Positions 36,101-63,100 of a stretch of DNA of 64,000 nt are shown here, in pieces. The notes under the pieces are model-generated. The model was given only the letters and a program-made list of their open reading frames with translations. It did no database searches and had not been told where the DNA came from. Within the stretch, counting starts at the first letter, position 1. Each line of letters begins with the position of its first letter. The stretch comes from Liolophura sinensis. Lineage: Eukaryota; Mollusca; Polyplacophora; Chitonida; Chitonidae. The stretch spans positions 16,729,385 through 16,793,384 of the forward strand of contig NC_088295.1 in the NCBI RefSeq assembly GCF_032854445.1, given 5' to 3'. The position numbers were made by a program, and so were the translations under genes.

Positions 36101-39100
36101 GAGTGCCGACATGATAGTAAGGTATAGTGCCACCAATAAAGCAGGTTTACACCCGTGTGGTAACAGCAGAGTACTGTGCTATGTACCATATTTCTTCTAA
36201 TTTTTGGGACACCTGATCTGGTCGTTGTAGCCAATATACATGTAATTGTAGCAGAAATATTAAGTTTCTTTTTTCTGTTTTCAGCACTACTAATATCTTT
36301 CCCCAAAATTAGAACAACCTTAAACTTTGGTTGTAACAGCACAGAACTATACAGTAGCAGTTTATTAAGTACTTTAACCACTTCCTATCGCTCACTTATT
36401 AAATTCCTCAAATTTTTCACATGTGAAAGAGCAACTTTCAGGGCAATTTATGCATATTTACAATTTGTTTTTCTAGACAAAACTACACTGGTTGGATTGA
36501 CCAATTTCAGGAAAAAGGATAATTTTAACTGTCTACAAAAAAGAATGCCTTCAGAATAAGCTGGAAGAAAACCAAAAAAAAAAAAAAAAAGGTGACTCAA
36601 ATACTGCAGTAATACCAAAACAAACAACTTAGAACTGAAAAGCTACCTGAAAGTACATCTTGGTTTTTTCATCAATGCCCTCCATGCATTTCTCCTTGAT
36701 CTCTTTATCACAGGATGAGTCAGAGTCAAGAGAATAGTCTGAGTCCTCGTCGTCGCTGGTAACAAGCTCCTCCTCCTGACTCTCTTTGATTGGTATGCCA
36801 GGCTGATCCTGTATTTTGATCCCCTTTTTTTCCGAAGCAGCCTCCTTTTCTGGATCAACTGATGAGCCTGTCGCAGACCCTGGCCTGATCACTGTACCCT
36901 CAGCAGTTACAGGTTTTTTGGATTTCAACTTTGCTGATTTTACAGCATCTTTTAAAAGTTTGGCATTCTTTCTTTCGTGAGTGTACATCATTAAAGACAG
37001 AACCTATGGAGAGTAAAATGGAGGAAATTATACAAATACTTTGCAATCTTATGTTACACATGACTCCCTGAAGTAAATATCTGAAAACTAATGATCCAGA
37101 ATTTATTTACAGTTTTATGACAATCTTTTATTTCATTTCCTGATCTTGTTCAAGAAAAGACTGAATACAGTTTCTGCTGGTTTTTCTACAACTTTATGTG
37201 TCCCATACAAGTATTAATTTGGGTATTTGAGTTTCTTCGCAGCCTGTAAAGCCACTATAAAGTGGTCATTCAGTCAACCTATTTCGTGTTTGGTATGGCA
37301 AAGAATTAACAACTAACAAATTAACAAATTCAAGACAAAATGAGGCTTAAAAAGAGCTTGGAAATCAGCCATAAAGGTGCAGCAAACTGGTCAATCAGGA
37401 GTTAAATCCTAATATAAACTACTTTTTCAACTGTTCCGCATTTAAAATGGAAGCCTTGGATGCTATTAAGATTGGCCAACTTTATGATTTCTTAAAAAGT
37501 AAACAATAGCCAGTCTGAACAAAACATGCCGAAGTAACACCATGGAAGCATACAAAAAGGTTGACAGTACAAATGTTGATTTTACTGATGATGCCAGAAA
37601 ATTACAAATGTATTCACTGAGGATCAATGGAACAGTGATGTGATGGGGTTTCGGTTGTCATGACTGCTCGCAGCCAGCCATTACCTCAAGATCTTTGAGT
37701 AGCCATTGTCTACTGAAGCCGGTGCCTTGGCTGGCCATGTAGACGACACACTGAAGAAAATCCGTCTGGTAGAGCTCTGTACAAGTCCTTTCTGTCATCA
37801 ACAGGAGGGTTTTACTAAGGGCCTTTAGGGCAAGGGAGAGCACCCAACTCTGCTCAACACTCAACACCTCACCTGAAACATAACACCAGTGATAAAATTA
37901 CAAGCATGGCTTAAGATACAAATGCTGTCAAATACTTATTGTTACAAGTGTAATCATGTACAAATAATGACAAATACGACATCTAAAAATTCCCAGACCA
38001 AGGCCAGGAATGACCCCATACCACAGAAACCATTATTTCATTAAGAATATAAGATTCTAGAGGATATCAATCATGAGTTAATGCATCACTGCACACAGGT
38101 ATTGGATGCCTGTGGCTACAATGGGACAGAGTGGAAGGCTCAAGCTTGCACATGTGGTATGACATGCTTATGTTACTTCATTGTTGCATTGTTACAAGAC
38201 TAGCGACATTTCCCTCTCACCTTTCTTCAGTCTTGTAATGATATCTTTGGTGATCTGCATGAATATTTCCAGGTGATCAGAGTGCAGGATGTCCAGCTGA
38301 GAGGAGGCACACTCCACATATTTGTCCTTCACCTGCCAAAACAAGATAGCCTGGACAAATACCCTAAAAAAGCTCATAATACATAGCACTTACAAATTTT
38401 AGCTTACTAACACACAGGTAGCCATTACTAAAGTCACACACAGGTAGCCACTACTAGAGTCACACACTTGTAGCCATTACTAGTGTCACACACAGGTAGC
38501 CATTACTAGAGTCACACACTCGTAGCCATTACTAGAGTCACACACTCGTAGTCATTACTGGAGTCACACACAGGTAGCCAGTACTGGAGTCACACACAAG
38601 TAGCCATTAAAAAACACAAGAACAAAAGATCTTCACTCCAGCAATAAATATCACCGACAATAACAAAATGTGACAGCATTTATCAAAATATAAAATAAAT
38701 TGGGCAATATGGTAATTTTGAATATGTTAGGAGTAATCATCAAGACAGTGGTGCATTTATATCTATACATTACAGCTCTTTTGGAGTTGATTACAGATGA
38801 ACATGTTTCATACTGAGACAGGATTGTCAATAAACTCACAGTCTGCCTCTTCCTCGTTTTCACATCAATGAGCAGAGTCTGGTGTGTAGCTGAGAAATGT
38901 TTCAGAACAATTCCATTTTTAACATCTGTTCCCACTAGGTCATATGTCACTGATGTTCCAATGGTCAGTATCTGAAAAAACAAGCACATATCTATTAATC
39001 ATGTATCGGGGTGTATAAACTGAAAATTATTTTAAAGAAATAACTAAAATCATCACGTAACATCACACTTTTCTGGTTACCTCAGTAATAATGTTATGAA

Positions 39101-42100
39101 CAATCAGAGAACTTTTTTTTCACAGGTTTTTTAGAACCTGTTTACAACAATTTCACACAATATAATGAGTAAAATAAGAAGAGAAAAGAAAACTCACCTC
39201 TGGAAATCCAGCGATTATGAAAAGTGCAAATATGGAGGAGAGATCTGGTTTCTGTAGGAAAAAAATTTCAAAATCATTTAAGACGGTCAGTGAAATGGTC
39301 CAAATATTGTAATATACATACTATACGTTAACCTGTCTGCAAGAATGATTCTGAATTACTTTCTTGGTAACTGGATCATGTCACATTTATAAATTATTTC
39401 TCAAACAGCTGCAATTAGGATGTTTGGAAATGAGATAAATGTCACTGAAATTCAAAAGAAATTTTTTTATTTTTTTTTTTTATATCTGTTAATTTTGTTT
39501 TATAACCAAAGTGGATGCCAGTATTGTTGAAAATGAGAAATTCACTCAAAAGTGTGTTAATTTTAAGTCAAACTCATTTCAAAATAAAATAACAACTGAA
39601 CTTCAGTCCAGATTGTCCTGAATCAAGACTGTTGAAGGCACCCCCAAGGTTTTAATTTTTATAAACAATACCTGATAATCTGAGAAAGCCATAAAAGCTG
39701 TGATATAATTGGATTTGGATGGAAAACTCCACGGGAAGATGGACAATCAGCTTGAACAATGCTACGTGCTTCTGGTTTCAACATTATAATCCATCAAGTG
39801 CTATCAGGTATAGGACTTACCTGTCTGTTGTTATCCAGACAGTCAAATTTGCTTCATCACTACAGACAGACCATTCAACACGTGAGTGATCAGGTGTAGT
39901 AACTAGAGAACTCACTTGTCTGAGGTTATCCATACACTCAGAGATGTGCTTCATCACTACAGATAGACCATTCAAAACGTGAGTGATCAGGTGTAGTAAC
40001 TAGAGAACTCACCTGTCTGAGGTTATCCATACATTCAGAGATGTGCTTCATCACTACGGACAGACCATTCAACACATGAATGATCAGGTGTAGTAACTAG
40101 AGAACTCACCTGTCTGAGGTTATCCATACACTCAGAGATGTGCTTCATCACTACAGACAGACCATTCAAAACGTGAGTGATCAGGTGTAGTAGCTAGAGA
40201 ACTCACCTGTCTGAGGTTATCCATACACTCAGAGATGTGCTTCATCACTACAGGCTTCCACTCTGGAGTGAGGTAAAGCTTCCTGAGGATTCGGGACAAC
40301 GGCCAGGCCCAGTCTAAACAACTCCTAAGGTAAGGAACAACTTCACAATATTATGGTCAGGAAATAAAACAAGGAAGTTCTCCATACCTACGTTCACCAA
40401 TTTCTGAGCATCAATGCATTTTGAGTAAATTAAGAACTACATGTAATAGTGTGCAAATAATAAGATGAAAAAACATTTATAATTTAACTGATAAACCACA
40501 GATGCTAAGATTCAAGGTAAAAAAAAAAACACTTTTCATGCTGTAAGAACAATTTTGTCTAGATTTACTCTGCATAAAATATAACAAATGTTTTATAATA
40601 TAATTTGCAAATATAATAAATATTTCTACTGGTCAGATGTACAACAGCTGGATCTAGCCAACAATCATCATAATGATAAAAACAAAACTGACTTTATATA
40701 CAGTTCAGTACCATTCTAAACACTTTGCCCCAAAATCAAAAAGGTATTCTATGGTGTTTTGCCCCTCTTGTGCATCTTTCACAGTGTTCGTCATTTCATG
40801 CTTCACGGCCGCATCAGCAGTCTGCAACACAAGAACAAGAGACATACAGGTGAATCTGTACCCAGCAATACATGTACAAGCAAACTGCGTAATAATCATT
40901 AAATAAGAAAGTGACAAACACGTTAGTTTTGCTTCAACACACTGCTTCTTCCACTACTTTCAACTTTAAAGGGTTTAAAATCATTGAATGGGTTAATAGT
41001 AACGTACGTGGATTTCCTACACTAAAATGTCATGCTGACATGTCCATCCAGTGAAAGTGATACGCTTCATCAATATTTATACTCCGGCCATACATGTCTG
41101 CCAGCTACCTGCGGATGGTTGTTGGTTTCCCCTGGGATCTGCCTGGTTTCCTCTCGCCATAATGCTGGCCGCCATCGTTTAAGTGAAATATTCTTGAGTA
41201 CGGTGTAAAACACCAATCAAATAAATAAATAAATATATTTATACTTATAGATCATTTTTTATACCAACATCTTTTGGCAAAAACTGAAGCAAAACAGTAT
41301 TAAAATTTATGGAAATGAAGTTACCTTTCTTGTGCTTCTGGTTAGCAGCATGCCTAACAAGCCCATGGCTAAATGTACAGTGTTCACCTCATGACCACTG
41401 TCTCTCCTACAATACATAAACACACATCATAACACAAGAGTTTAGCCACTTACATTGACATGTGGTCTGTTAAATAAGCGAATGATAACAATTGGTATGG
41501 TCTGATTTGTTTGGTTTGGATTTAACAATGCTTTCTACATCACTTAGTCATCTTACAACAATGGCATTACAAGTTTCATGTATATTTAGACAATTCTTGA
41601 TGATGTAGGTTCTTCCCACCATAATGCTGGCCACCTTCATATAAGTGAAATATTCTTGAGTATGGTGTAAAATTCAATCAAATACAAAAATATATAAATA
41701 ATGTATATTGCAAAGACACAATGCAGGTTTATATCAGCTCTTAACGTTAGTTTTACCATGAAATGGATGAATGTATTGGAAATGTACCTCACAATCTTGA
41801 AGAGAAGTTGCAGGAAAGACTCGTTGTTGAAGTTGTAGATGGAATCAGTTTCAATCTTCTGTAACAGAAATGCAAACCTTAATATTAAGTTTCGAAAGAT
41901 TCTGCTGCATTAAAAGGTATTACTTGTCCATTAAAGGCATGTAACCTGGCTCAGCCACATACATGGCATCCAAATGTATTAGTACCTACATGTATCACCT
42001 GTCTATAAGAGAACATAGAAGGTCTTCCTTTATGTTTGCCTAGCTCTAACAGAGGCTTAAAATGGAATCTTCCGGTCAATGCAGGTCAATATTATAATGT

Positions 42101-45100
42101 ACTATTTCTCTTTATTATACCTATACATACAACACTCTCTTGCAAGATACAATAAAACAGTGATTTTCTTTGTATGAATACCTTTCAAAATGATTCTGTG
42201 ATAAGCATACATATATCATACATCCTACAGTATAACAGATATCCCTAGTGTCCCACCCACAGGTGATCTCACCTGATCCACCAGGGGCACCATGGCCCCT
42301 AGCAGTCCCATGATTCTCTCCTGGGAGTGGATTGCAAAGGCCTCCTCTTGTCGTACCTCTAGCTGTTTCTCACATTCACTTTTCACCTCACCTGTCCAAC
42401 ACAAACACCCAAACAAAACACTAAAATACTAATTCAGTGTGGTAATGTTTTGAAACGTAACATTTGTCTTTTTATAACTATTTTTTCACATATTTTAAAA
42501 GGGTCGCAGAATTTGATTAAAATGATTTAAACCAGTGGTTGCAATATCCAAAAACGTACATCTTATAACTCCATTTTTATCAATCTGTCATATATACATG
42601 TATTAATCTTACATCCTGATACACGCTCAGAAAACTTGGTGTCTACTTACCTTCTGCCTCCTTGGGTACAGTGAGCAGACAGTGCATGGCTATGTCAATA
42701 CACTGGTTATGAAGTTGGACAGCGGCCTGCTGGTAGTCCCTGTCCCCCTGCTGTGAGTGGGTCTCAGTGCCATAGATGTAGTTAACCAGACAGAGAGCCA
42801 GTGTGGAGTACAGCAGCCAGACATGTTGATGGATATACGCCTGCAGCAGGCTGTCACATTCACGCTTTGTGTTCTTCACTGTCATGAAGAAATTAAGGAT
42901 AACTTTAAGCAGCAGGATCCAGTTGTTTGAAAGTGTATCAGCTTATACTGGTTGTTATTCTTTAAATCTTTAGTCAAACTCAGCAGCCAATGCAGTGCTC
43001 CAAAGTCAAAGTATATCAGCAACAGTTTTATTTCTTTATTTAATGTAATGTTACACAATTTTTTTAGGCTAAGTACAAAATTGAAGACCAGAAGTTAAAT
43101 CTGATATTAAGTCTTAAAGCGGTTTGAACAGCCTGGCCCAGGATATTTATCTATTTATTCATGATTCGTATTTTACACCAATCTACTCAAGAACATTTCA
43201 CTTATACAACTGCAGCCAGCCTTATGGTGAGGAGAAACCAGACAGAGCCCGATGAAAGCCCACTACCACCTACAGGTTGCCGCCAGACTTTCCATGTATA
43301 ACAAGAGAATTTGCAAAAATACACTTATACAAGTGACATTTCCTAATGTAGAGAAAGATAAAATCTACAGCTTGATTGACAAAGCATCACAGGCAAGATG
43401 CAAATCTTTCAAGGAATTAATGTTTCGTTTAGATGTTTATATGCCATACGACGACGAGTAGTCATAAGGACCAGTCCATCCCGCCAAACTGCTGCCGCCA
43501 CTGAAGTATCATGCCTAAGACACCAGACACACTCCACCTAATCATATTACACTGACACCAGGCCAACCAGTCATGTTTCCTTGCTCTAACCTCTCAGTTT
43601 TGAGAACCAAACCAGGCAGCAACAAGTATCAATCTTAAAGTCATTGGTATCAACCGACCTGGTTCTGATCACAGAGTCTCCCGACTTCCAAGACGGATGC
43701 TCTAGCCATTAAGATGTCTATAAATTGATTAATATGTTAACACTTTTTTTGATTAATTCTTCCTCAAACATAAGTTTCTATAAAGTTCTTAGTCTTAACA
43801 TCACCCATCCAAGTTCAGAGGACAAGCACACTTACACTTCACCATAGGGAACTTGGTAATGTCATGTTCAGAAGAATGTCTGAAATGTATGAAAACAACA
43901 GTAAGTTTACCATTGCTCTAATACAATGCACAGGTAAGTCATCACAACTTAGCCAACATACATGTGTTTAGGGCAAAATTGCTCTCTACAAGCTACTGCA
44001 TAAAGTTGGATGTCTTTAATATCACAAATTTCAAAACAAGGCAAGATATACAGTTTTACAGCCATTTGCTATAGTTACAGTTTCATATATTAAAATTTTA
44101 CAGTAACACATTATTAAAGGTGACTAAACAGAAGACAAAGTAGTCATTGTAGATCAAAGTCATGAGATATGACCACCAGGTAAGAAGTGATTATAACACA
44201 TCTGACATCAACATACAAGATACTACTGAATCAAGGTAATAACACATCTTTTGCTATGAATTCTTTCAAAGTATCTTACAATGCAAAGGTTCCTCAGACT
44301 AGCAACAGAAACCATTCACTTCTGATCAATAGTGAAGTTTGATTTTAAAGAATTATTTGATACAAGAATATTAGATCCCCGTAAACATGCTCTTACCCTG
44401 AAGGGAAGGACTCTGTGATGTGACAACCCAGACAAAGGTCAAAATCTTCACACACGTTACAGTGAATACGAGTTCCAACAATAAATGACTGGCACTTGTT
44501 ACATTTATACCTGAAGGAAACAATGGCAAAATGGAACATGTGAAAACAATTCAAAGAATGCTTTGCACGTAAGTGGTCACAAACACCACTGATTTTGGTG
44601 AATGTTGAAAAAAAAAAAAATGTAAAGATTATAAAATATCACATTTTGACACTTCACCATTCCTTAGATACAGCATGCACAAATACGGAGATGATGATTC
44701 TATAACATAATTTGATAAAGGGCATATTACATAAACTCCTAGAAGCATTTCAAAGTGGTATACAGTACTGGTAATCACATAAAAGGTATTGCACTCTATG
44801 ACCTTTTATATGAGCACAAAACATGTTTTTATTTTTATTTTTTTTGTTCACCGGTATCACTGATACATATTCCCACTACTGTTGAAATCAGTTCAAATCC
44901 TATGAAATACCTCAAATTGTAATAACTGGTTTTAGAAGTAGGTGCAGCAGTGGGTGCACAAACAACATTCTGTTCTAAATGAGCATATCCTGAGAAGTAC
45001 CAGCACTTACATGAGGTACACCATGTCATGATCATCTGTGTGTTTTGAGTTATCACTCTCTGCATACGGCTTAACACCTCCTGTCAAATATACCACAATT

Positions 45101-48100
45101 TAACATAACAAAATCCTGAATTTTCACATATCCAGTCACATGACATAAGATTTACTCCAGAGCCCTGGATATTTTCTAAACTTTAATTGACACAAAGGCA
45201 ATCTTCATGATCACCATAACACATGTACTGTACAAGGGGTTGATTTCCCCACCTGTGCCCTCCTATGTAGATGGCCAATGCTTCATGACCAGCTTTACCA
45301 TATCGCTGACATGTACACTATACATGTAAAGATTTGATTTCCCTGTTTTGCTCACCAGATTAGCATGCACCACACAAGTTCATATTTCATGACTAGAGCT
45401 TTGATTTCCTTATTTTGCTCACCAGCTTAGCATGTAGCACATATGTTCAGATTTCATGACTATAGGTGTTGCTCACCAGCATAGCATGTAGCACATATGT
45501 TCACATTTCATAACTAAGGTTTGATTTCTCTGTTTTGCTCACCAGCATAGCATGTAGCACACAGGTCCATGTCCTCACACTGTAGACACCTGTACCTCCG
45601 CCCAGGCAAGGTCACAGAACAACCATCACAGCTAATCTCCACATCCAACAGGTCTGAGAACTTGGCTACAAACATCTGTATTGGCTGAAATCAAAAAAGG
45701 AAATAGTGAAACTATCAAATTCTTTATCAAGTTTTACTGTATCCAAACAACCTTCATTTACAGCCATGCAAATCCTATCAAAAAGCAAATATTCCCAGAG
45801 ACTAATTTACTTTACATAAAATCCTATTTCATTTTTTCCCAAATTTTTTAATTATTTCCAAAGCTACATCTTTTTTGAAAAAGAGGAAACGGCCTGTTCT
45901 GACTGAGGCTTCTAAACAGGTAATTTTCTTTCTCTAATAAATTCAATCCATACATTCAGCCTGCCACGTGTTGACGTGGCAATCTGAGGAGCCTACCTTG
46001 CGTTCCTCGGAGGATACCCCATCATGTTTGTGGTACCAAGTAGAGAAGCCTTTGCCAGAGTCGGCACTACATTCCTGAAACCAGGTCTTACATTGCTCAT
46101 ACTCGCGCAGTTCTTTGTTCTCTTCCTGCTCAGCCACTGTACGATCACGCATCTTCACTGTCTCTGAGAGAATGGGAAACAAAAAAATAAATGTTACAAA
46201 CTGAAAAGCCTATACAAAGTAGTTAGATGCAAGTTTCTTGAGTCTGATAAGGCTGATATCACTCTGTCGTATTTTGTATAATCTATGGTGCCATCATGCA
46301 AACATATGATCACCGGAATATCTTGCTAAAGAAACAGAACATTTGAGATGTGTTGTTTGGTGTCACAACAGTAATTAGCTGGGTTGACAGAAGTGTTGGA
46401 ATTGAGTTAGCAAGCAATTCAAACTGAATGCCATGTAAATTTATTCATTAGTGGGTCACAGAACTGACTTTCAAAATGAAGTGAGAAAATAACCCATCAG
46501 AAATCAAATGCTAACAAGGGTTACCTTTAGCTATGTCGAAGAACAAAGATGGAAGTTTGACCTCAGAAATGAAGGAGAAGTCATATGGCTGCAAACACAA
46601 CACAACATTACATTAAAGGGATACAAATTGATCATCTTTTGTCCTCAATAAAGATGTCCAATAACAATACTCTAAAATAGGTATAGAATTCAGTTTTAAA
46701 GGATGTGGTAAAATTATGTAAATAGAGCTTCCTTGAAAGTGCGCAAAATTTTGCATCCAGTAACATTCAAATTTGTACGAAACTACATGTAAACAATTAA
46801 ATCTTGTTACATATGAGATGACATTAATAGTATATAGTCCTGAGTATAACATTTCTGGGTTAAAGTGATTTGCTTTGTTGTCAAGATGACAGATACAGTC
46901 GCAAGAGATTAAAGGCTTACCTGCCACTGAGTGTCCAGGAAGTGCAGCAAACAAGCCTGTATGAAGTCATAGGCATTGGCCATATTCCTGAGAGGGAAAA
47001 TACTAGAAGAATTAAACTAGATGTTTGATTGGTTTAACTCTGTACAGTACACTTTATAGCCTATACGATGGCCATCAGGTCTTTAGGGTAGGCAACCGGA
47101 TTAGTCAAGAGTAAATCCTACGTGTATGTCAAAATGTAATATGACCTGGTGTAATATACCTTGTTATATATCACAATTTAGCCCTCTGTGGGTACCAGGA
47201 ATCTCATCCACATGTATGTACAAATTTCAAGGCATATTTTCGAGTGTGTGATAAAATTCCTGAGTATGTGATAAAATGTAGGGGATCGCCACCAAAGCCA
47301 TAGACATACCTCTTGAGCTGTCGTCTCTGGGTCCCCTGGAAGGAGTCGACTAGCCGTCTGATTAACACATAATAGGATTTTCTCACCCTGGACTCTAAAT
47401 CCAGACCACACCCATCCAGACCCTCCGCATAATGTTTGGCAAAGGAATCTTGGAAGGACAACATCTCTGACAGGAACAGCACAGTTGGGATCTGTTAACA
47501 ATGAAATATCCCGTACCATGTGAGGTAAAATAATACATTCTTTGAAATTTGTACAACCTCAAGCACACTGAAGTATCCAATCACATCCACACAGTCAGAA
47601 CAAAGTGGATTGCAATAAATGATTGAGGAAAAAAAAACTCTCAGTAAAATACTGTGTTTCACCCAAAGTTTGGTATGGAAAAGCGAAATTTTAGACGCAC
47701 ATGATGCCCTGAGAATGATACTATTGACATTTAAGATTTTCTCATAAGAATTTAATCCATCTTCGCGAGAATAAAAATCTATAATAATGGATAAATCAAT
47801 CACAATAAGGCAAAATGTGTCAGATGAAAATGCTAAACTTTCGATGAAATACAGTAATGTGATTTAGCAGGAATTATATGTTACAAACAGAAGGGAAGTG
47901 TTTGAGTGAGTGAATGAGTGCTTGGGGGCTTAACGTCGTACTCTACAATTTTTCAGTTTTTCTGACGATGAAGGAATCCTTAGGATTTATGAAATGTGCC
48001 TCCTTGCAGCAGGGAGGATTTCTACCCCTCTTTTATCTAGTACTGCTTCACTGAGATGACTTACCCAAGGCAAGTAAGCCGCCCCGCCCGAGCCATTATA

Positions 48101-51100
48101 CTGATACGGGTCAACCAGTCGTTGCACTATCCCCTATATGCTGAACGCCAAGCGAGGAAGTTAAAACTTCCTCTTTTAAAGTCTTAGGTGTGACTCTACC
48201 CAGGATTGATCCTGGATCCACCGCTCCCGAAGCGGACGCTCTACCAACTGTGCTATCTGGGCCGGTTGGAAGTGTTTGATTCAGACCACTTGACAAACAT
48301 GAATACTAGGATACAATGAAGCTGTGATATGGCTGCTGTTCATGTTAACTTGAGAGTGTATGCACGTACATGTACCTAGATTCTTCAACTCTCTTGGTTG
48401 TCTATTAAAGCATATTCTGAAGGCATTATTGTATGTAAACTGATAAAATTATACTTTTGGAGAAGCCCTGGAATTGGCCAATCCAATCAATGTAGTTCTG
48501 TCTCCAGAATCATACTAGAAATGTTCATAAATTGCACAGAAAGTTGCTCTTTCATATGCAAAAAGACTGAGGAATTAGGGTATATACTGACTTGGAATAT
48601 GTTATCTTCACTGGTCTGCCTGATGAACTCTGAGGCAAACATGTACACCTCTGCCACAGCCTGAGCATGCTGAGATCTCTCCTGTAACAGCCGATTTACC
48701 CTGCAACCAAAAACAGCGTACTGCTTAAGCTGTCACAAACACATACATTTCTACATCTATAAATAAGTCAAACTTTGAATATGGGTACTTCTGAAAATGA
48801 TGGGAAGTATGAAGCCTCAATTAAACTATTAAAGTGAAGACAGAAACACTAGCAATATGGATAGCAGAAGTAGAATTCACTCATATAGATGTCAAGAGAG
48901 CATTATTTTAACAAATGAACAGTCAGTAATCACACATCTGTATGCATCTGTTTTGTAACACAAGAACCCTAATTTCAACACTCATTTTTCATTACCCTAC
49001 CTTTTGTGGATTCTAAATTCAAAGAACATGAAAATGGTAGAATCTCACTGAGTCTCATTTTGAAACACACTGAAGAAATTGTTGGAAAATAATACACAAA
49101 TCAATATGTTTTCATTAGCCTCACCTTTCTGATGACCAAGCAGGATCTCGTACAAACTCAATCACCAACTTAAAGGCTGGGTACTTCTCAAATCCAACTG
49201 AGTCAAAGTCAGCCTGTAATAAAGATGTATACGAAATTAACCTCATAAATTACAGAGAGATCAACAGTGATACAATTAATGAGAAAGAATCTCTTCCACC
49301 CTTTGCATAGTTATGACACTACCCATCAGTTTGGATTACCCGTAGTAATTTACTGGTCTTCTAGTAATTAATAAGCCAAACAGGCATTAATTTAAAACTG
49401 TCCAAACCAAACCCATGTGCAGAATACGTAAGTGCAATACAAACAGATTTACCTTAATCAGCTTTTCCAGCCCTGTATACAATTTCTTGTTAGATACCTT
49501 CTTAAACAATTGCTTACTGGTTTTCTGCTTGAGCTGAAAAACAATCAAGGTCATTGTTTTCAAGTACAAATTAATCCAATCATAACATCTTTATTTATCA
49601 GGTAGTCTTATATATCATAATGATGGATTTATTAATCAAAGGTAGCTTATTTTGTTTTACAATGAAAAGTGTTCTTCGTCAAGGCCTTCAAACATAAAAC
49701 AATATATATAAATTAACTGTACTTCAGTATCAGTTCACATCACAACACATTATGATTGTCAGCTTTTAAGACAGAGAATTAACAAATGTACTAAACTATG
49801 GAAATATTTATGAAGCTTACCTCATGTTTTAACTGAACCTTGCTCAGGCCAGCAAACTTCAACAGGTACAAGGCTTTCCCCTTACACAGTATAACTATAC
49901 ATAAGAAAGAATTCCAGAATAATAGCACTCAAGAGTTGGGACAAAGAAAAAAAAACACATTAACTCTGTACAAGCATGTACACTAAAATATATCAACTGC
50001 TGACTTGAAAAAAGGAAGTTAGATGATTTGGAACCACACATAGTACAAATGACATTTCATATACCAATTTATATATTAAGTATGAACTAGAAATATTTAT
50101 ATTAAACACATGTTGTGTCAGAAAAGTACCTGGGACTCCTTTAACAAAGCGTACTTAGCTTTACGTGCACTTAACTTCCATGGAGACCAGTACTGTCGGT
50201 ACTACGTCGCCATGGTAGTTATGTGAAATGACGCCCAGGTCATCAATTTTGGCCAATATCATCATGTATTTTTACATAAACCTATAAAAAACAATGAAAT
50301 CAAACCTGGGTCATCTTCAATGTTGGAATCTGTATTTGTATGATCTGCTGAGTCTGCCAACTGTTTCTTCTTTATCTGTCTTTGAGCAAGCTATATAATA
50401 AACCAAAACTTTCCATAAGTGTGTAGTCTTAAGGAATATACATGTAGGACCATGTTGACCCCTACACCAGTGTTTCCTCACACACCTGCCAAGTGTATGT
50501 ACACCATGATTACAACATCAACTTCAGCTCTTTCCACCTGAGAGCCAAACACCAAGCAGGTAAAAAATGAGTCAAACTTAGCTCAAAAAATAATTAATAA
50601 AAGTTTCCTTCACAAAAAAATTTTTAACAATTTTCCCAGAAGCCAACAGGCAGGAAGGAGAGTACCCACCAAGTGCATCCTGAGATACTCTGCTGCATTG
50701 TAAGCCTGGAAGATCCCATCACTGATAGGGTTCACACTCTCACCAACCTCACAGCTTTGAACTGAAAGCAAACAAAGGACAACACCTTAAACTTCTGGAA
50801 TTTCAAATTAGTAAGAATATGACTTACAACTCCAAATGGCTTTGAAGCTTATCTTCTACAGTTTCAGCAATTACTGAATAAATAAACTTTACTATTTACA
50901 ATTTACTAACACTCTACTTCAAAAGCAAACCACAAATCAAGTATCATAGTAATTAAATTGTAGTGATATAAGTGCATGATTAAAAAGAATAAGGTAAACA
51001 TGCGATTACCATATCTGGTGATGTCTTCCCTAAGCTGCTGTGTATGCCAGAGTAGAGCTGCAAAAACACAGATGATAGCAGCATCCACCTCCTCTCCTCC

Positions 51101-54100
51101 TAGGCGCTGACGAGGCAAACCCTTACTCTGGTCCTGACACCTGTACAGGTAAACACAAAATGAACTCTTCTGAACAGTCAATTTTGATTTTCGACCACTA
51201 ATGTTTTGGTGCTGAGAAATTTGACCCTTTGGATAACGGGATTCCCATGTGAAGTCCACCATGTTGCTTTTATGCCATGGGGACAAAAAGCTGTGACTGA
51301 TTTCTGTTTTAAATTTTTATATTTAAGTAATTTATCACAGATACCATTTAACTTTGGGCTAATCTGCCTAGATGACAGAAAGTTAGGTACAGTTAGGTAC
51401 AGTTAGGTACCAATGAACAAATGAAGAACATTCAACATATGCTTTGACAAAACACAGAATACATGTACAACTGTAACCCCTACCGTTTTAATAGATTGGT
51501 TGAGGGTCCTTCTTTCTGTTCAATTAGATCCCACAGGAACTGGTTAGCCACTGTGGCATCTTCAGCAGCCTGCAGCACAAACAAAACATGTCAAGAAAGT
51601 GAACAATTCCATCACATCCTCATCATTTGAAGATAGTTTGGACTTTCAAATACTAGTATACATCCATAAAATGTTGAATCAACCATACACTGTATGTTTT
51701 TGTTTCAAACAGGAATTGTGCTAGACAGTTTATCAATGTCATCATCAACATTTGATAGCAATTTACATCACTGGCATCAGTACACATTTATAGCAAAAAA
51801 TCACATTGAGAAATCTGTTGCACACATGTTGCTACTGAATTACATGAAACTTCTTTAAATAGATGATTTACCTGATCATAAATAGTTTAACATTTGAACC
51901 CCACATTTAAGTGCATCAAACACAAGACTTGTTTCTGACTACTTCACATTTGTTACTCTACTAGATATTATTTATGCACTATAAGAAATGTTTCAGTGGC
52001 AAAACAGACCTATCTGAACACTTACAAATTTTCCGGAGAGAGAGCGCTGGAGTTTGCCAATCATATAGCCCCCTCTGAAGAGAGTGGTCCAGAGTTCACT
52101 GCGAAGCAAATCTTGGTCGTCCCCCCTTCCATCATGGATGACCTCCGAGAAAGCATCCCGTAAACAAACTGTCACAATACAGAATACACACATACAGATC
52201 ACCATTACTGATACCTGTACCAGCTGTCATTTAGTAGATTTGCCTATTACATCTAAACAAACTCATGAACACTCAACATAATGCAGACTTTATATTCACA
52301 TTCAAATCATTTAGGGGTACAAATAATAAGTGAAAGCTATAGCTGGCAAAGGATTATATTATGACAGCCACAACATTAGGTTATCTGTTGTCAAGGAATA
52401 CTAAACAATACAAGTAAACACCTCAATGTTCTACTATTTGTGAACTACAATGATTTGGATAGACTTACATCCTTTGGCATCCAGAGTTGAGCCACACAGT
52501 CTGCCAAACAGCTTGGCGAGGCTGAGCTGAAGGTCAAATGGCCAGCAGAGAGGAGAGTCTGGACAACCCTTAGCTGTCAGCTAGACAAAAAAACAAATAG
52601 TCTCATGGAATACTAGGCACCAACACATAATTTATAGTCGTACTCTTGAAATCATCAGTTCTGAACACACATTCTTCTCTGCATGTCTAGGTTTTATGAG
52701 TAACATTGACAAAACATGTTAAACATACTAATGTTTTGAAAAAGCAGACGGGTAGTCAACAATTTGTTCATTTGATAAATCAATTAAAATGATGAAGTAT
52801 TCAATTTAGAAATACTTTAAGTAGTTGGAGAAGAAATTACTTGGCTAGACCAATTGGTACCTTGAACTTGTATCCCCATTCATTGTTACTGCCATCAGAA
52901 TGGAAAAGGAAGTGAAGGCGATGACCGCCAGCAAAGGTGACAAGTCTGGGCCACTTTTCTGTGCCTACTTTCATGTCAAAGCGTCGCTTTATCCCACGCG
53001 AGTCCGTAAACTCTAAATAATCATACCTGTATAAATACAGACACATAATACTGAAGGACAAGAAAACCTCAAAAGGAGAAAAGGTTTGCTTTCAAAACTT
53101 TTACTCTCAAAAACTAATTTTACTGATTTGACCAAAAAAAAATTGTAATGATGAAAGACCAATCTAGAGCCCAAAAGTTTACCTCCTTTCTGTTTCACAT
53201 CTGGGGTCAAACTCCACAACAAATGATGTTGCACCTGGACAGCTGAAAACCTGGGAGGCAAACAAATATTATTTGTTATGAAACAGGCAGTAAAATCAGG
53301 GATTAAAGTAGTACAAACAGCAACTGTCTTAACATCTAAAGTTTAAGTTGAACCATGAACACATTTTAAAAATATTACGTAATACACACAAGTACCGCAC
53401 CAAGTGGTGTAATCGTTGTTCTCATAGTTATGGCCGGAATCCTCATGTCAGGCCCTCAGCATTTATACTGGTCACAACAGTGTGAGCGTGAACTGAGCTA
53501 TTACACGTAGCTGTGTGGTGTGCTGGTTGTTCTCATAATTATGGCTGGAATCCTCATGCCATGCCCTCAGCATTTATACTGGTCACAATAGTGTGAGTGT
53601 GAAGTGAGCTATTACACGTACCTGTGTGGTGTGTTGGCTGTTCCAATAGTTATGGCTGCACTCCACATGTCAGGCCCTCAGCATTTATACTGGTCACAAT
53701 AGTGTGAGTGTGCAGTGAGCTATTACATGTAACTGTGTAGTGTGTTGGCTGTTCCAATAGCTATGGCTGCACTCCACATGTCAGGCCCTCAGCATTTATA
53801 CTGGTCACAATAGTGTGAGTGTGAAGTGAGCTATTACATGTACCTGTGTGGTGTGTTGGCTGTTCTCATAGTTATGCCTTCAGCAATTATACTGTTTGCA
53901 ACAGTGTGAGTGTGAACAGAGCTATTACATGTACATGTACCTGTGTGGTGTGCTGGTTGTTCTCATAATTATGGCTGGAATCCTCATGCCATGTCCTCAG
54001 CATTTATACGGGTGACAATAGTGTGAGTGTGAACGGAGCTATTACATGTACCTGTGTGGTGTGCTGGCTATTCTCATAGTTATGGCTGGACTCTACATGT

Positions 54101-57100
54101 CAGGCCCTCAGCATTTATACTGTTCGCAACAGTGTGAGTGTGAACAGAGCTATTACATGTACATGTACCTGTGTGGTGTGCTGGTTGTTCTCATGGTTAT
54201 GGCTGGAATCCTCATGCCAGGCCCTCAGCATTTATACTGTTCACAACAGTGTGAGTGTGAACGGAGCTATTAAATGTACCTGTGTGGTGTGCTGGTTGTT
54301 CTCATAGTTATGGCTGCACTCCACATGCCAGGCCTTCAGCATTTATACTGGTCACAACAGTGTGAGTGTGAACAGAGCTATTACACGTACCTGTGTGGTG
54401 TGCTGGCTGTTCTCATAATTATGGCTGGAATCCTCATGCCATGTCCTCAGCATTTATACGGGTGACAATAGTGTGAGTGTGAACGGAGCTATTACATGTA
54501 CCTGTGTGGTGTGCTGGCTATTCTCATAGTTATGGCTGGACTCTACATGTCAGGCCTTCAGCATTTATACTGTTCGCAACAGTGTGAGTGTGAACAGAGC
54601 TATTACATTACATGTACCTGTGTGGTGTGCTGGCTGTTCTCATAATTATGGCTGGAATCCTCATGCCATGTCCTCAGCATTTATACTGGTGACAATAGTG
54701 TGAGTGTGAACTGAGCTATTACACGTACCTGTGTGGTGTGCTGCCTGTTCTCATAATTATGGCTGGAATCCTCATGCCATGTCCTCAGCATTTATACTGG
54801 TGACAATAGTGTGAGTGTGAACGGAGCTATTACCTGTACCTGTGTGGTGTGCTGCCTGTTCTCATAATTATGGCTGGAATCCTCATGCCATGTCCTCAGC
54901 TTTTATACTGGTGACAATAGTGTGAGTGTGAACGGAGCTATTACACGTACCTGTGTGGTGTGCTGCCTGTTCTCATAATTATGGCTGGAATCCTCATGCC
55001 ATGTCCTCAGCATTTATACTGGTGACAATAGTGTGAGTGTGAACGGAGCTATTACATGTACCTGTGTGGTGTGCTGGCTGTTCTCATAATTATGGCTGGA
55101 ATCCTCATGCCATGTCCTCAGCATTTATACTGTGAACAATAGTGTGAGTGTGAACTGAGCTATTACACGTACCTGTGTGGTGTGCTGGCTGTTCTCATAA
55201 TTATGGCTGGAATCCTCATGCCAGGCCCTCAGCATTTATACTGGTGAAAACAGTGAGAGTGTGAACGGAGCTATTACCTGTACCTGTGTGGTGTGCTGGT
55301 TGTTCTCATAGTTATGGCTGGACTCCACATGCCAGGCCCTCAGCATTTATACTGTTCAAAACAGTGTGAGTGTGAACGGAGCTATTACACGTACCTGTGT
55401 GGTGTGCTGGTTGTTCTCATAATTATGGCTGGAATCCTCATGCCAGGCCCTCAACATTTATACTGGTCACAATAGTGTGAGTGTGAAATGAGCTGTACCT
55501 GTGTGGTGTGCTGGCTGTTCTCATAATTATGGCTGGTCCCGAGCTTTTAAACAGGTCAAAATGGTGTGGATGCCAATTCAGTCATTACCTGTGTGGTGTG
55601 CTGGATGTTCTCATAGTTATGGCTGGAATCCTCATGTCAGGTCCTCAGCATTTATACTGGTCAAGATGATGTGGATGTGAACTGAGTCATTACCTGTGTG
55701 GTGTGCTGGTTGTTCTCATAGTTACGGCTGGATTCCACATGCCAGGTCCTCAGCATTTATACTGGTCACAATAGTGTGAGCGTGAAATAAGTTATTACCC
55801 GTGTGGTGTGCTGGTTGTTCTCATAGTTATGGCTGGACTCCACATGCCAGGTCCTCAGCATTTATACTGGTCACAATAGTGTGAGTGTGAAATGAGTTAT
55901 TACCTGTGTGGTGTGCTGGTTGTTCTCATAGTTATGGCTGGACTCCACATGCCAGGTCCTCAGCATTTATACTGGTCACAATAGAGTGAGTGTGAAATGA
56001 GTTATTACCTGTGTGGTGTGCTGGTTGTTCTCATAGTTATGGCTGGACTCCACATGCCAGGTCCTCAGCACAACATCCTCAGCATTGACCTGAGACCAAT
56101 GCTCACTACCAATCTAGTAATGAAACAGATATTATATATTACCTCTATTTCACACTCATCTTAAACTTAATAATCCTTACAACTGTACACCTCGTCAGAA
56201 GAATGGAACTTACAGAGCACATACACTGTATTTGATGTTTATTCACACACCTGTCAACCCTATTTATTATACTCTTGAGCACTGGAATGGCATAAAACAC
56301 AAGTCAAAATAAATAAATAAAACCAAGACTATTTATTCATGACAATAAAAGATCATGTTTAAAATGAGCATTACAGTAAAGATACCGAAAGCACTAGAAA
56401 TGTAATAAAGAAAGCATATCAATAACAACTGCTGACTGACCTTTGGAAAGATGTCTGGCACTAGGTGGGAGAGTTTGCAGAGCTCCATAAGTGCAGGCTG
56501 CAGGTTGTTCAGTGTGGCCACCCTGTGTCTGGAGTCACACTGGCTGCCAATGGAGGTCAGTAGGCAAACCTAGGTATATGAGGAAATGTCACAGGGTAAA
56601 CAAATGTAAGAATCCACACGCAAAGAAATTCCCCATTCCCAAAGCTCATCCCATTTCCTCACCAAAAGGTATATGCATCATATTTTCACCCGATAAAGTT
56701 AAATGAGATATTAAAGTAGATCCCCAGCACTAGGTCTTCCAAACTGCAGATAGACTGTTTGATGTCCCGAATCGATTCTGATCGCTTAAAATGTTAAAAA
56801 AAAAAGAATTTGGTCATCAATCATCAGCAAATCTACTCCCCTACAATCGAGCCACCGCTGACCTTGTGACAGGAGACAACTGCTATACTTTTACAGCTAT
56901 TTTTCGAGATTATCCCATGCCCATGTGTGGCCTGCAACTGCAGTCACACAACACAGGGTATGGTAAAGTTACATACATGGCCTCACCTGCCGGTATCACT
57001 TGACTTGGCTATAAAAATTCATAGTCTGTGGAATGCGAAACCATGCCAAATTCTCCACATGTACTACCATAATTTTATGTCCAATTTGCATCAGACAAAG

Positions 57101-60100
57101 CAGACGGGAGTGCATTTTTGTCATCACCGGTGGCCAGTATATGAGCAAAAATCGGTCACTGTATCGCCCAGTCGCTATGCTGTACCTGCTTTTCCAAAAT
57201 CTAATTTAACTGTGATAGCCTATTTTTCAAAATATTTGTTGTAAATAACTGTTTTTCTTAATGATTTTCTGGGTGCTAAGGAAGAGGTATACAAGTAGGG
57301 GTACTTATAAATTAAGTCATACGATGGCTTATGGAAAACCACACAGTGGGTGGGCCTAATGAATGGATTTGGCACCGCTTGCAGGGCTTTTGAATACATA
57401 ATCCTTTTATCTGCATGACATCACCCAGCCAGGGCTCCGCGGTCGACAAGATAGGCAGAAGATTTTTTTTTTTTTCAAATACTGTTTACAGACTAACATA
57501 GCATAAATATCGTGTCTATTTTCACAGTAAAGGTTCCCTAACGTCTTTGGGGATCTCCCTTAACAACAAAATGAGCCTTAGTCCAAAAACATCAATGTTG
57601 CCTGAAGGAACATACTAAGGTTTGTATAATTTGAATGTGAGGACATGAATTAATGACTAGGCAGCTCTTTGGGATAATATACACATCTAAACTTAAGGAA
57701 AAGCATACACAAATTTGTCCATGATTCACCAAACTCAACTTACCATATTATCAATATAAATGCTCTGAATACATCCCTTATTAAAAAACAAACATGATAA
57801 CTGGTATCACTATTTAAATGTACTACAAATGGGATGTTGCAGCTGCCCGTACCTTGACTTACATGTAAATGTGACATGTTTTTGTACACAAACTCACTCA
57901 CCATTTGTCTGACCACAGAGCCCAAAAAGGACACCAACAACTTGGGAAATAAACGTGTCTGTTGAAAAAACAGAAAATATTATCACAGAGCATGCAATAT
58001 CAGAAGTGTGCAGGAAGGTAGCAGAAGTTAAATTTATCTCTAAAACAGACATACCCAAATCAATGCTGCATGTTAAAAGTGCCAAAAAAGTTAACTTACC
58101 AGTTTTTCTGGATCCATTCCATTGAGAAGCCGGAGGGCATCTGCAGCTTTCTGTCCTACATTCACAGTGTCTGTAACAGAAAACGCAACACTGCTGTACA
58201 CTGTGTCTGAGAGGTGAAAGTCTCTCAACATCAATCATCTGAACATATACTATGTTCAGATGTATAGTATTATACTATACTAACTATGTGTAGTATAGTA
58301 CTGTACACAAAGACTGCAAATAACATTCTTCACAAACTTCATTATGTGAATTGAACAGTCAGATTAGACATCAAACTAAAACAGCTAGTACAGTTTCATG
58401 TAAACAAAATTCCGGTGTTTTCATTTGAAAACTGCTTAACTTCATAGAGAATAGCTGAAGAATATGGGAATTAGTGATACTTACATTGGGTCATAGCCTG
58501 AGACATATTACTTTTGGTAACAGCCTGAGACATGGTGCGACTTACATCAAAGGGGTTAACATGAGACAGAGCAATTACATTGGGCAATAACTCTAGACAG
58601 TGCAACATTTTCCACTGGGTGATAACACAAGACAGAGCAACACTTACACTGGGTGATAACCTGAGAAGCTACTGTTCTCCATACATCTTCCTCCTTAACA
58701 GTGAGATGTCTCCAGCACCAGGAGAGCAGGCTCGTCTGTAGACAGCAGACTAGGTGGACCAGATGGTTGTGCTGCTCACTGACATCCTCAGCCTGAAGAG
58801 CTCCACAGAACTCACGGTACGACACTGATATCAGGGTGTCCATCACAGACAAGACTGGGCCAGATTCAAAGTCCTGTATTAAAACATGATACTGTGTGAC
58901 AGACTGATATCAGGATGTCGATCACAGAAAAGACTGGACCAGAGTCAAAGTCCTGTATTAAAACATGATACAGTGTGACAGACTGATATCAGGATGTCCA
59001 CCACAGACAAAATTGGGCCCAAGTCATAGCCCTGTATTAAAACATGTCACAGTGTGACAGGCTGCTATGAGGGTGTCCATCACAAAACAGGGTGGTCTAA
59101 GAAGGAAAGTCCTCTAAATAAAACATGACACAGTGTGTAACTTACATTAGGTTGTTGCAGATACACATTGGAAGTCCTCAAACCACATTACCAAATTAGT
59201 CCATTGTCAAATTACGCATGTATGTTAAAAAAAACAATATGTAACAATATGTAACAATATAATATGTATGAATAACAGTCTAAATAGTTGCATCAAGAAG
59301 CATCACCTAAAGATCCTAGCTATATTTCACACTGGAGTTTCCTAAACTTTGACATAATTCAGTCTTTGTGCTACGTACAGCTGATGGATGTTTGGGCAAG
59401 TCCAGCAGCCCACTGGGGTCCACAGTGCTGAAAAACTGACAGAGAGACTGAAACACCAGGGTTACAGACGGAGAGTCCCCAGACACCTGCAACATAGTCA
59501 GGGAAACAATAAATATGTGTACAAACTGTAGGCAAATAGTTACAAGCTGCCAGTCAGAGAAACATCAATTTGTTATGCATTTACAAGTGTGAAAATGTTT
59601 AAACAAACCACTACAAAAACTTTATGATCAACCTTTTCATTTCAACCCATGAGTGAACATCAACGACAACCTTGAAAGCAATCTTACTGTCACATTTTCC
59701 ATCATTTTGAACAGTTGCTTCCTCCTTGCTTCTTTGTCAGAGAAAAAGATTGCTGCACCTAAAAAACAAAAAGCCCAATGAAAGAACAAGAAAATCAAAG
59801 AAGAGAAATTATCTGACAGGCCTGTGATATAATATGAAAAAAGATAAATATATATGTAAATAACATTGTGAATTAGTAAAATAAAGCAAAATATTATAAT
59901 TGTAGATTCTGATTAAGTAAGCTCCTTAATTATAATTACACATGAAAACCTGTGAAGAAAACATAGAATATCCATATTTACCATCAATCAGCAACTGCTT
60001 GACCACAGAGATCAGTTGGCCATCTTCCTTCTCCATAGGGGAATCCACCAGAGTACACAAGTGCTGGAATAACTGTTCAGCTGACACCTGACATGTACAG

Positions 60101-63100
60101 AGATGACCTGTGTATTAATAACCCTGAATCATTGCAACAATGACTGTTACATATTTGGAAGAAATAAAATCCTGTAACTGTGTTAATTTAAAAATGGTTC
60201 CATTTCACTTTATCTCCAAAACAACCTATCCTCATATAAAAATAGCATATTCAAATATCACCATTTAAATATAAGAATTATGAAATGATTTTGACCTTCT
60301 CACATACTTTATGTAAAAACTGTTGTTGCTTTGAAAGAATATTGGTTAAATTATATGATGTCTGCTGTTTTGGTTTTCAAAATGTAACTCTTCAGGTGTC
60401 TGCCAGCAAAATGCGAATGATTGTGGGTTTCCCCCAGCCTCTGCCCGGATTCCTTCCACCACAATGCTGTCCGCTGTCATATAAGTGAAATATTCTTCAG
60501 TACCATGCAAAACACTAATCAAATAAATATATAAATAACCCCTCAGGGAGACAGGTTATAAATTCTGACAGCCTGACATGAATCTCAACAATTAGAAGTA
60601 TGTCTGCACATAACTTTTACCACATATAACTTATTTCAACATCTAAGAGCCATAAAGAACACTTTGGAGCTCACCTTTGGCTCCTGCTGTTTTATGGTTA
60701 TGTAAGGGGTGATACTGTGGAGAAGCTGCAGTAACAGCAGCCTACACTTGGACCAGGAAGCCAAGTCCCTGTAACAATATGGTTGCAATCTCTATACCTC
60801 TCACATTGACAAAAACAGATTTCCACCATGCTACTACAAATAAACAATGACAGTTCCAAATCTTGACATGAAAATGGGGATATTTGTCAACATAAGAAGC
60901 TGTACACCAAGATCGATAATTCCAATATCCTTCATTATTACATAGCTAGAAATGTGGTCCCATGAAATCAGTCGGATTGTAGTCGGCTCGGGGGAATAAA
61001 TTTCATTATTTGTTGATTTCCGACTTCAAAAAAATACTAAAGCGCAGATCAAAAGCAATTTAGTAATATACAAGTGCTGGATACAGACTGTACTGCTCGC
61101 TGAGATCAGGGAGATAAAAAGAACTTCCTTCAAGCTGGCACGTGTAAGTCTGTACATGTATCTTCGATCGTTATTTTTGCATGAGATATAAGTCCTTGGA
61201 CAGGTTCATCTATATAATAAATTGGTCATTGTGAAGTGTCTTGTACATTATGGAGTGGTATTGTACTCGTCCATGTTGTGTTGGAAATCAACATTGGACT
61301 TATATGGATTTTCAACACAATATAATGCACAAAACACTTCACATCTTGACTTGTACCAAATATTAAAGGTCTCATGTCCACATACGCAATCATGACAGAT
61401 GGAACAAAGGCCCTGGTGAATAATAAATATGTAAAACAGAGCTAACACATATAAAGTCATGGATATCGCGAATAAAGAATCACAACTCCACTTTCTGGTT
61501 ATTTTTTAGAGAGTAGTTAGAGGAGAACCCCAATGACTTTATTTTCACATTAAAAGTTCATTAAACACAATATCTGTGCTCCGTTAGTCTGTATACTGCA
61601 TTTAAAGAACTATCATGTTAACTAGTTCCATTTAAAGAAAAACTATTTAATTTGGGCCTTCTGTCTATCTTGTCTACTGCAGAGCCCTGGTCGAGTGAAG
61701 TCTTGCTGTCATGCACTCTGACAGTGATATAACCAAATCACTTTTGCAACAAAATTTTGAAAGACAGGCTACTGTAGGCCTATTAGACACGGGAAACACA
61801 TATACAGCATTGCAACTGGGCAATATGATGACCAATTTCACATATCAGCCATGTAGATGACACACATGCGCTCCTGTCTGGTTTGTCTGACACAAACTGG
61901 ACATCCACCGAATTATGGTAGTACCTGTGGAGAATTTGGCATGGTTTCGAAGGTAACACACTAGAATTTTTTTACAGCAAAGTTGAGCGATACCGACAGC
62001 GACACAAGGATCCATGCAGTGGGGCCAGCTAATAGTGAGTTGCACTGACAACTACTGAATGGAAACCGTGATTGGCAACACAAAGAAATAGCAGTTTAAA
62101 ATTTGTCTGGGTTCCCGTTATGGGCTTCAAGGTACGGCATGCCGTGGTGTATTACATGTGCACAACATCCTGCAGGCAAGGTGTGAACTGAGCTGGAGGG
62201 AAGCCTGTAGCTTCATGGCCGTTACAGGGCAAGCCTTGCGGCTCCCTACAGTTCGTGTCACAGCCTGCTGTTTCAAACGAGCAACTAGCTAAACAACTTC
62301 TGCATTCAGGGAGTGAAAATCCTGACGCCTTTTCCGCATGGTTATTTTGGGGGATATTATAAGCCTCGTCCTTTGGCCTTCTCTTTTAGAAGTTATGGCG
62401 GAATTAGCAAGTCTCATACGACTATGATCAAGTCCCCAGTAATCCAATGGTGTTTTTGACAAGATCTGGTCATATTTTGTAAATCTGTGCCATTTTTTAA
62501 GCCATGTATGTGACTATACAGAATCCTGTGTTGTGTTACTGCAGTCGCAAGCCACACTTGGGCATAGAATAATCTCAAAATTATCTATAAAACTGGAACG
62601 ATGTTTCCTGCTGTCTGTGATATCAAGCTATCTGTCTGCAGTTTGGAAAGCTCAGTGTTGGGGACCTACTTTAACATTTTACATTATAATCATATAGAAC
62701 AACATACTTCTCAAATAAAGTGTACATCTCCCAGATGACATCCAGTGGGGATTCCCCCAAGTCTAGGTGCTCAGGACGCAGAAAACTGCCCTTCCTGTTG
62801 ATACACTGCAAGGGAACAAGGTACAACATTCACATATATGTACTTTAATTTAGGCAATGTTGTTTCTGGGATTTTCATTTTTACCATTCATAACTACAAG
62901 CAAGAAGAGATGAGGTCACCCATATAATGATTTATGATGGAATACTCTCAAATGCTTTCACTGGCATTCCAGCAAATTTATCTTACTTAACGTCAACACC
63001 AAACACAGAATATTATCTGCCAAATCTGCCAAATTGCATGGACACAGCCAAACATTTTTTTACCCTTTGGAGTGGAGAGTTTTAATACAGCTTTTGCTGC

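Follow-up and report, generated by a model that had tools for sequence, protein, structure and literature searches.

Tandem repeats that meet exon borders have precedents. A 1995 paper reportedly concerns, by its title, a minisatellite that supplies several splice donors to one transcript (gene 6-16/IFI6), and a 2007 paper is said, again by its title, to treat human introns originating from tandem arrays. For human segmental duplications, PMC2812944 describes internal tandem repeats that sit at exon-intron boundaries and are associated with changes in splicing and with novel introns. PMC4974935 (ATP2A1; potato RdRp) discusses how introns may be gained by tandem duplication, including the Rogers model, in which an AGGT-bearing exon segment is duplicated and a new intron arises with the peptide unchanged. 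Here we describe tandem arrays at exon borders in the chiton Liolophura sinensis, centred on a ZZEF1-like gene in a 64,000-nucleotide stretch of contig NC_088295.1 (positions 16,729,385 to 16,793,384 of the forward strand; hereafter the window). At four donors and one acceptor of this gene, the splice site falls within a tandem array, at the end that reaches into the exon. Across 40 further loci, it is the side of the junction overlaps, more clearly than their total, that exceeds chance: arrays cross donors, whereas at acceptors they stop at the junction or shortly before it. This donor/acceptor asymmetry is the part worth pursuing.

Arrays were called with Tandem Repeats Finder (TRF), and exons with a custom ab initio gene finder trained on the window itself; all exon borders are predictions. 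Whole-genome searches covered 609,464,459 bases in 632 contigs of the chiton assembly. The comparison set consists of 40 other loci (designated by L numbers), unselected for arrays, of 6.5 kb each (about 7 kb had been planned), or 260 kb. They are conserved multi-exon genes located through their HECT (best 14 of 20), PI3/PI4-kinase (all 12) and kinesin (best 14 of about 38) domains, all as counted by hand, with neighbours merged. The sampling plan and a 15-nt crossing threshold were fixed ahead of viewing these loci. The main cut-off used here is 10 nt into the exon with a period of at least 20, and the planned 15-nt result is also reported. Four elements were introduced post hoc: the division by intron side, the tally of arrays that stop short, a version with basic periods and the weighting by GC. 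P values are uncorrected. TRF yielded 77 merged arrays with a period of at least 15 in 32 of the 40 loci, 67 of them with a period of at least 20; from these 67, the 37 lying in introns with predicted exons on both sides were tested, and 30 were excluded, including those of L017 (acceptor, 25 nt), L019, L025 and L028. A random DNA set comprised 12 stretches of 3.2 kb from 11 contigs, genes allowed, one of them inside L015.

In the 40 loci, arrays cross eight donors by at least 10 nt (L007, L008, L020 twice, L021, L027, L038 and L039) and three acceptors (L005, L011 and L017), with junction copies seen at both. The recurrence of junction arrays proposed by an earlier sequence-only reading (the first-pass annotation) therefore extends beyond the ZZEF1-like gene, 11 of 444 predicted junctions being crossed in the unselected sample against 5 of 108 in that gene (Fisher P 0.22). 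On this comparison the ZZEF1-like gene is not shown to be special, nor is the presence of five such arrays in one gene shown to be a peculiarity.

Expectations were derived from a null in which a one-unit seed is placed anywhere in the collapsed intron or over either end. Among the 37 tested arrays, eight donors are crossed where 2.28-3.35 are expected (P 0.001-0.012), and with GC-weighted placement the donor crossings still amount to 2.0-2.8 times expectation (P 0.036 and 0.004). Two acceptors are crossed, against 2.3-3.4 expected. At acceptors it is the position of the array edge that is enriched: ten arrays end in the interval from 30 nt short of the acceptor to 9 nt past it, versus 3.15-3.47 expected (P 0.0004-0.001), and two do so in the same interval at donors. 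A table of crossing and stopping short for donors versus acceptors gives a Fisher P of 0.008, or 0.004-0.005 with denser gene models. Furthermore, the donor excess and the acceptor-edge excess persist for both period choices and three gene-model densities. The predicted exon that ends the intron of L021 (5602-5641) is doubtful, and results without this locus were also computed; the acceptor-edge count is then 9 against 2.58-2.91 expected, and without both L021 and L030 it is 8 against 2.0-2.25 (P 0.0006-0.0016).

Within the window, two ZZ domains lie in the minus-strand exon chain (about 27.8 to 63.9 kb), consistent with a ZZEF1-like gene; the name is that of the first-pass annotation, fits the ZZ pair and is provisional. 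Some exons of the map are uncertain and some were set by hand. The gene, its junction arrays and the exons concerned are as follows.

27839..63858, minus strand: ZZEF1-like gene, from the ab initio exon chain and ZZ matches; 55 exons in the tested map.
39815..40253, minus strand: 97-bp array of 4.5 copies (TRF), crossing the donor of exon 40207-40324 with 47 exonic nt.
40207..40324, minus strand: exon with functional donor CAG|GTGAGT (gene finder); 4 GT decoys counted in its array.
45333..45560, minus strand: irregular 54-67-bp array, crossing the donor of exon 45543-45684 with 18 exonic nt; TRF (67/54 bp) stops at 45520, and the end was extended by eye to about 45560.
45543..45684, minus strand: exon with a ZZ domain and donor CTG|GTGAGC (gene finder, ZZ match).
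53417..56070, minus strand: 2.65-kb array of 105/111-bp units and 222-bp dimers (TRF), crossing the donor of exon 56009-56089/56113 with 62 exonic nt; the 105-bp part is 55535-56070.
56009..56113, minus strand: exon with donor CAG|GTAATA; its acceptor is at 56089 in the gene-finder model and at 56113 in the first-pass annotation, the donor being identical.
58557..58660, minus strand: weak 35-bp array with 75% matches (TRF), crossing the donor of exon 58648-58873 with 13 exonic nt.
58648..58873, minus strand: exon with an array at each end and donor AGT|GTAAGT (gene finder).
58824..59137, minus strand: 79-bp array (TRF, 58824-59084/59137), crossing the acceptor of exon 58648-58873 with 50 exonic nt.
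38410..38609, no strand assigned: 26-bp array entirely within an intron of the ZZEF1-like gene (TRF), for comparison.
34145..34198, no strand assigned: 24-bp array, entirely intronic (TRF), for comparison.
58481..58533, no strand assigned: 27-bp two-copy array, entirely intronic (TRF), for comparison.

TRF and the gene finder agree that arrays abut the five junctions originally listed; four are clear, whereas the 58648 donor has only a weak 35-bp array, none of whose copies could be aligned by script. Five of the eight intronic arrays of this gene cross a junction, versus 1.3-1.6 expected (P about 0.002), a figure that is based on the partly hand-set exon map of a gene chosen because of these arrays. 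Arrays free of exon content, adduced earlier as a contrast, do exist, as at 38410-38609; three of those then cited (3389-5332, 6679 and 10690), however, lie outside the ZZEF1-like gene. In the 2.65-kb array, the 111-bp unit corresponds to the 105-bp unit with 6 extra bp inserted immediately inside the donor copy.

Several further features were recorded. A 200-base run of N (window 28242-28441) marks a gap in or beside the 3' region of the ZZEF1-like gene, and the stretches at about 41180-41235 and 41638-41685 both hold 'taagtgaaatattcttgagta-ggtgtaaaa', which seems to resemble the tail of mollusc short interspersed nuclear elements (SINEs). At 3134-3282 on the minus strand lies an exon of a phosphatidylinositol transfer protein gene (Pfam IP_trans, E 4.3e-19); directly upstream of it, 37-bp units form an array of 1.9 kb. 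In one random stretch (L044, on C1), overlapping arrays, mainly of 58-bp period, span nearly all of the 3.2 kb.

The sampled junction arrays vary in regularity. At L007, the stretch around ATCAAG|GTACAC is repeated about every 87 bp in 16 further copies. At L027 (3449-3942, gene strand), the three displayed copies carry GG at the position of the functional donor's GT and are not GT decoys. For L038 the donor was reset from 961 to 913, since the following predicted exon carries on from there what we take to be KIFC1 sequence. At L039 (4849-5004), one copy far inside the array, in a KIF5-like intron, contains some 100 nt of the preceding exon, versus 54 nt at the array start; at least two duplications of differing extent therefore seem to have happened. 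Other candidates were set aside. The arrays of L019 (5220-5710) and L025 (5125-6366) were rejected as donor crossings: they straddle a stop codon, and the unit repeats the last codons of two PIKK genes, which we take to be DNA-PKcs and ATM. Consequently, any coding edge can be caught in an array, not splice sites alone. An acceptor crossing of 21 nt at L028 was not counted, the true acceptor probably being CTTCAG|ATTTATAATGAG, past the array end. That of L030, with a 7-nt overlap and no aligned copies, falls under the threshold and was kept in the acceptor-edge count of 10.

The units are unrelated, as had been claimed. Comparison of 72 units reveals similarity in two cases only, each between a pair of arrays at one locus (L005 and L035), and a genome-wide search with three of the five ZZEF1-like arrays, which ignores simple repeats and very common words, matched each to its own locus only. 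Head-to-tail units of tens of bp, unrelated across loci, are those of minisatellites.

Our best reading, which we regard as an even call, is neutral local duplication filtered by the order of splice sites. The genome would continually form minisatellites by local tandem duplication of any stretch, tens to a few hundred bp long; that this duplication is random and local is suggested by units that are unrelated and private to their loci. Where the duplicated stretch includes an exon end and its donor, each later copy would bear a spare donor, and since the copy touching the exon body would still splice correctly, the donor array could grow without any change to the protein. Where an acceptor is duplicated, spare AGs would lie upstream of the true AG and be met first by splicing; in established models of AG choice, an upstream copied acceptor is the one used first. 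The upstream AGs would thus cause most acceptor arrays to be lost, and arrays to be tolerated only up to the acceptor edge, as the asymmetry suggests.

Several observations weigh against filtering of this kind. Donor crossings reach 2.4-3.5 times the uniform expectation, an excess that pure filtering does not predict, so a seeding bias at 5' intron ends may be needed. The acceptor crossings are not clearly below the uniform expectation of 2.3-3.4, and the purging of acceptor arrays is therefore not itself established. Without the crossing array of L027 and both arrays of L021, donor crossings fall to 6 against 2.93 or 1.86 expected (P 0.06 or 0.008). The plain donor to acceptor count is 8:3 in the sample (P 0.23) and 12:4 with the ZZEF1-like gene added (P 0.08), and none of the eight arrays of that gene ends just short of an acceptor. 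The total at the planned 15-nt threshold is 8 against 5.28 expected (P 0.12), decoys as strong as the functional donor number only 7 of 20 in L021 and 6 of 24 in L039, the split by side was unplanned, and the exons are predictions. A combined account, possible rather than probable, would have array birth biased to 5' intron ends by border-linked mutation, with splice-site order then permitting donor arrays of dozens of copies and stopping acceptor arrays at the AG.

Chance alone would hold that about 3 arrays per 10 kb, falling in short introns, hit junctions at the expected rate and that splicing is irrelevant; as a full account this is doubtful. Random DNA contains 13 arrays with a period of at least 20 (3.4 per 10 kb, 22% of bases) and the gene sample 2.6 per 10 kb (16% of bases), so that arrays are no rarer outside the sampled genes and look like a property of the genome rather than of genes. 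Together with the two arrays that straddle stop codons instead, this speaks against a class defined by splice junctions alone. The median collapsed intron length among tested arrays is 567 bp, and in introns so short a seed would often cross a junction; much overlap is expected from the fraction of sequence that arrays fill. Ten of the 37 arrays cross by at least 10 nt against 6.7 expected with best-scoring periods (P 0.10, or 0.25 with GC-weighted placement), and the 15-nt total given above also speaks for chance. With basic periods, however, the expectation drops to 4.56 (P 0.006, or 0.03 GC-weighted), and chance leaves the donor and acceptor-edge excess without explanation. The comparison with chance that the first-pass annotation had called for has a divided outcome: at 10 nt the total exceeds the unweighted expectation by a factor of 1.5-2.2, P ranging from 0.006 to 0.25 according to the null, and the donor excess is steadier. 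Total overlap is mostly, perhaps wholly, expected from array abundance. A mutational hot spot, in which breaks or slippage at transcribed 5' borders (through R-loops, splicing-coupled repair or a GC step) seed the duplications, much as the first-pass annotation had proposed, is unlikely. It is consistent with donor crossing above even the GC-weighted null and with the array edges lying within 50 nt of a junction, 11 at donors and 14 at acceptors versus 6.8-7.4 expected (P 0.05-0.08 and 0.002-0.005, respectively), but array density is not higher in the gene sample than in random DNA, no pile-up occurs just inside the intron at donors (2 within 30 nt and 3 within 50 nt, each fewer than expected), and crossings of acceptors show no increase. 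The idea of a mechanism acting at splice junctions finds only partial support: abundance explains most of the overlap, but the asymmetry between donors and acceptors remains.

The copied sites themselves bear on the other alternatives. Retention of copies by selection for spare splice sites, one of the mechanisms first suggested, would agree with the 82 of 139 decoy donors whose score equals or exceeds that of the functional donor and with the slightly higher conservation of motif columns (0.93 vs 0.91 for the rest of the unit). Nevertheless, GT or AG persists in 161 of the 189 decoys, where rest-of-unit decay predicts 153.7 (15 of 16 junction arrays, the 58648 donor array being left out), which is no clear excess, and the displayed L027 copies read GG instead of GT; such selection is highly improbable. 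Copied splice dinucleotides are neither clearly protected nor purged once made. Since so many decoys match or exceed the functional score, correct splicing must depend, in part at least, on position, and the donor nearest the exon body is presumably the one used. That the copies serve as alternative exon ends or coding repeats is also very unlikely: some units are multiples of three and meet no in-frame stop ahead of the first decoy (those of 30 bp in L020 and of 54 bp in L038), but just 5 of the 12 donor-array units have a length divisible by three, and in 7 of the 11 donor arrays with a GT decoy the reading frame reaches a stop before the first of these decoys. An assembly artefact, for which no support was found, is barely credible. 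The Liolophura japonica genome (PMC11068029) is a HiFi assembly with reads averaging 8,347 bp at 14x, so that the mean read exceeds the window arrays (at most 2.65 kb); moreover, the copies show divergence and keep the register of the exon.

If the sample is representative of the genome, about 2.5% of junctions (11/444) carry splice-site copies beside the real one, often equal-scoring. The genome would then offer many natural tests of how the spliceosome picks one of several near-identical donors, would allow tolerance of duplication to be measured directly at either end of an intron, and would point to a possible route for intron growth without protein change. If array birth is in addition biased to 5' ends, the result would be a genome-wide natural experiment with introns starting with up to about 30 near-identical donors. 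The arrays also form a repeat fraction left unnamed in the repeat table published for Liolophura japonica, which lists 0.08% as 'other: simple repeat, microsatellite, RNA' and 14% as unclassified (PMC11068029). A literature search with little subscription-journal coverage recognised no genome-wide account of this donor/acceptor asymmetry and nothing on minisatellites in chiton or mollusc introns, which is not proof of absence.

The earlier statement that no named class exists is only partly right, boundary tandem repeats and a multi-donor minisatellite having already been published. As in the IFI6-type minisatellite, judged by its title, the repeat units here hold a donor consensus and adjacent exon, at four ZZEF1-like donors (one weak) and at eight in the sample, with the L027 copies lacking the GT. 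Unlike that single-gene case, the chiton arrays occur in several genes, were found unselected and are patterned differently at acceptor edges. The tandem-array introns of the 2007 title concern intron birth, whereas the chiton case concerns growth of an existing intron. Like the repeats of PMC2812944, the chiton arrays sit at exon-intron boundaries; those repeats belong to human paralogs with novel introns, whereas in the chiton, as read here, existing introns lengthen and the exon is unchanged. As in the Rogers model, in the form given by PMC4974935, tandem duplication supplies splice sites; in contrast to that model, the duplicated stretch is not wholly exonic but spans the exon-intron junction, the units holding 11-62 exonic nt plus intron.

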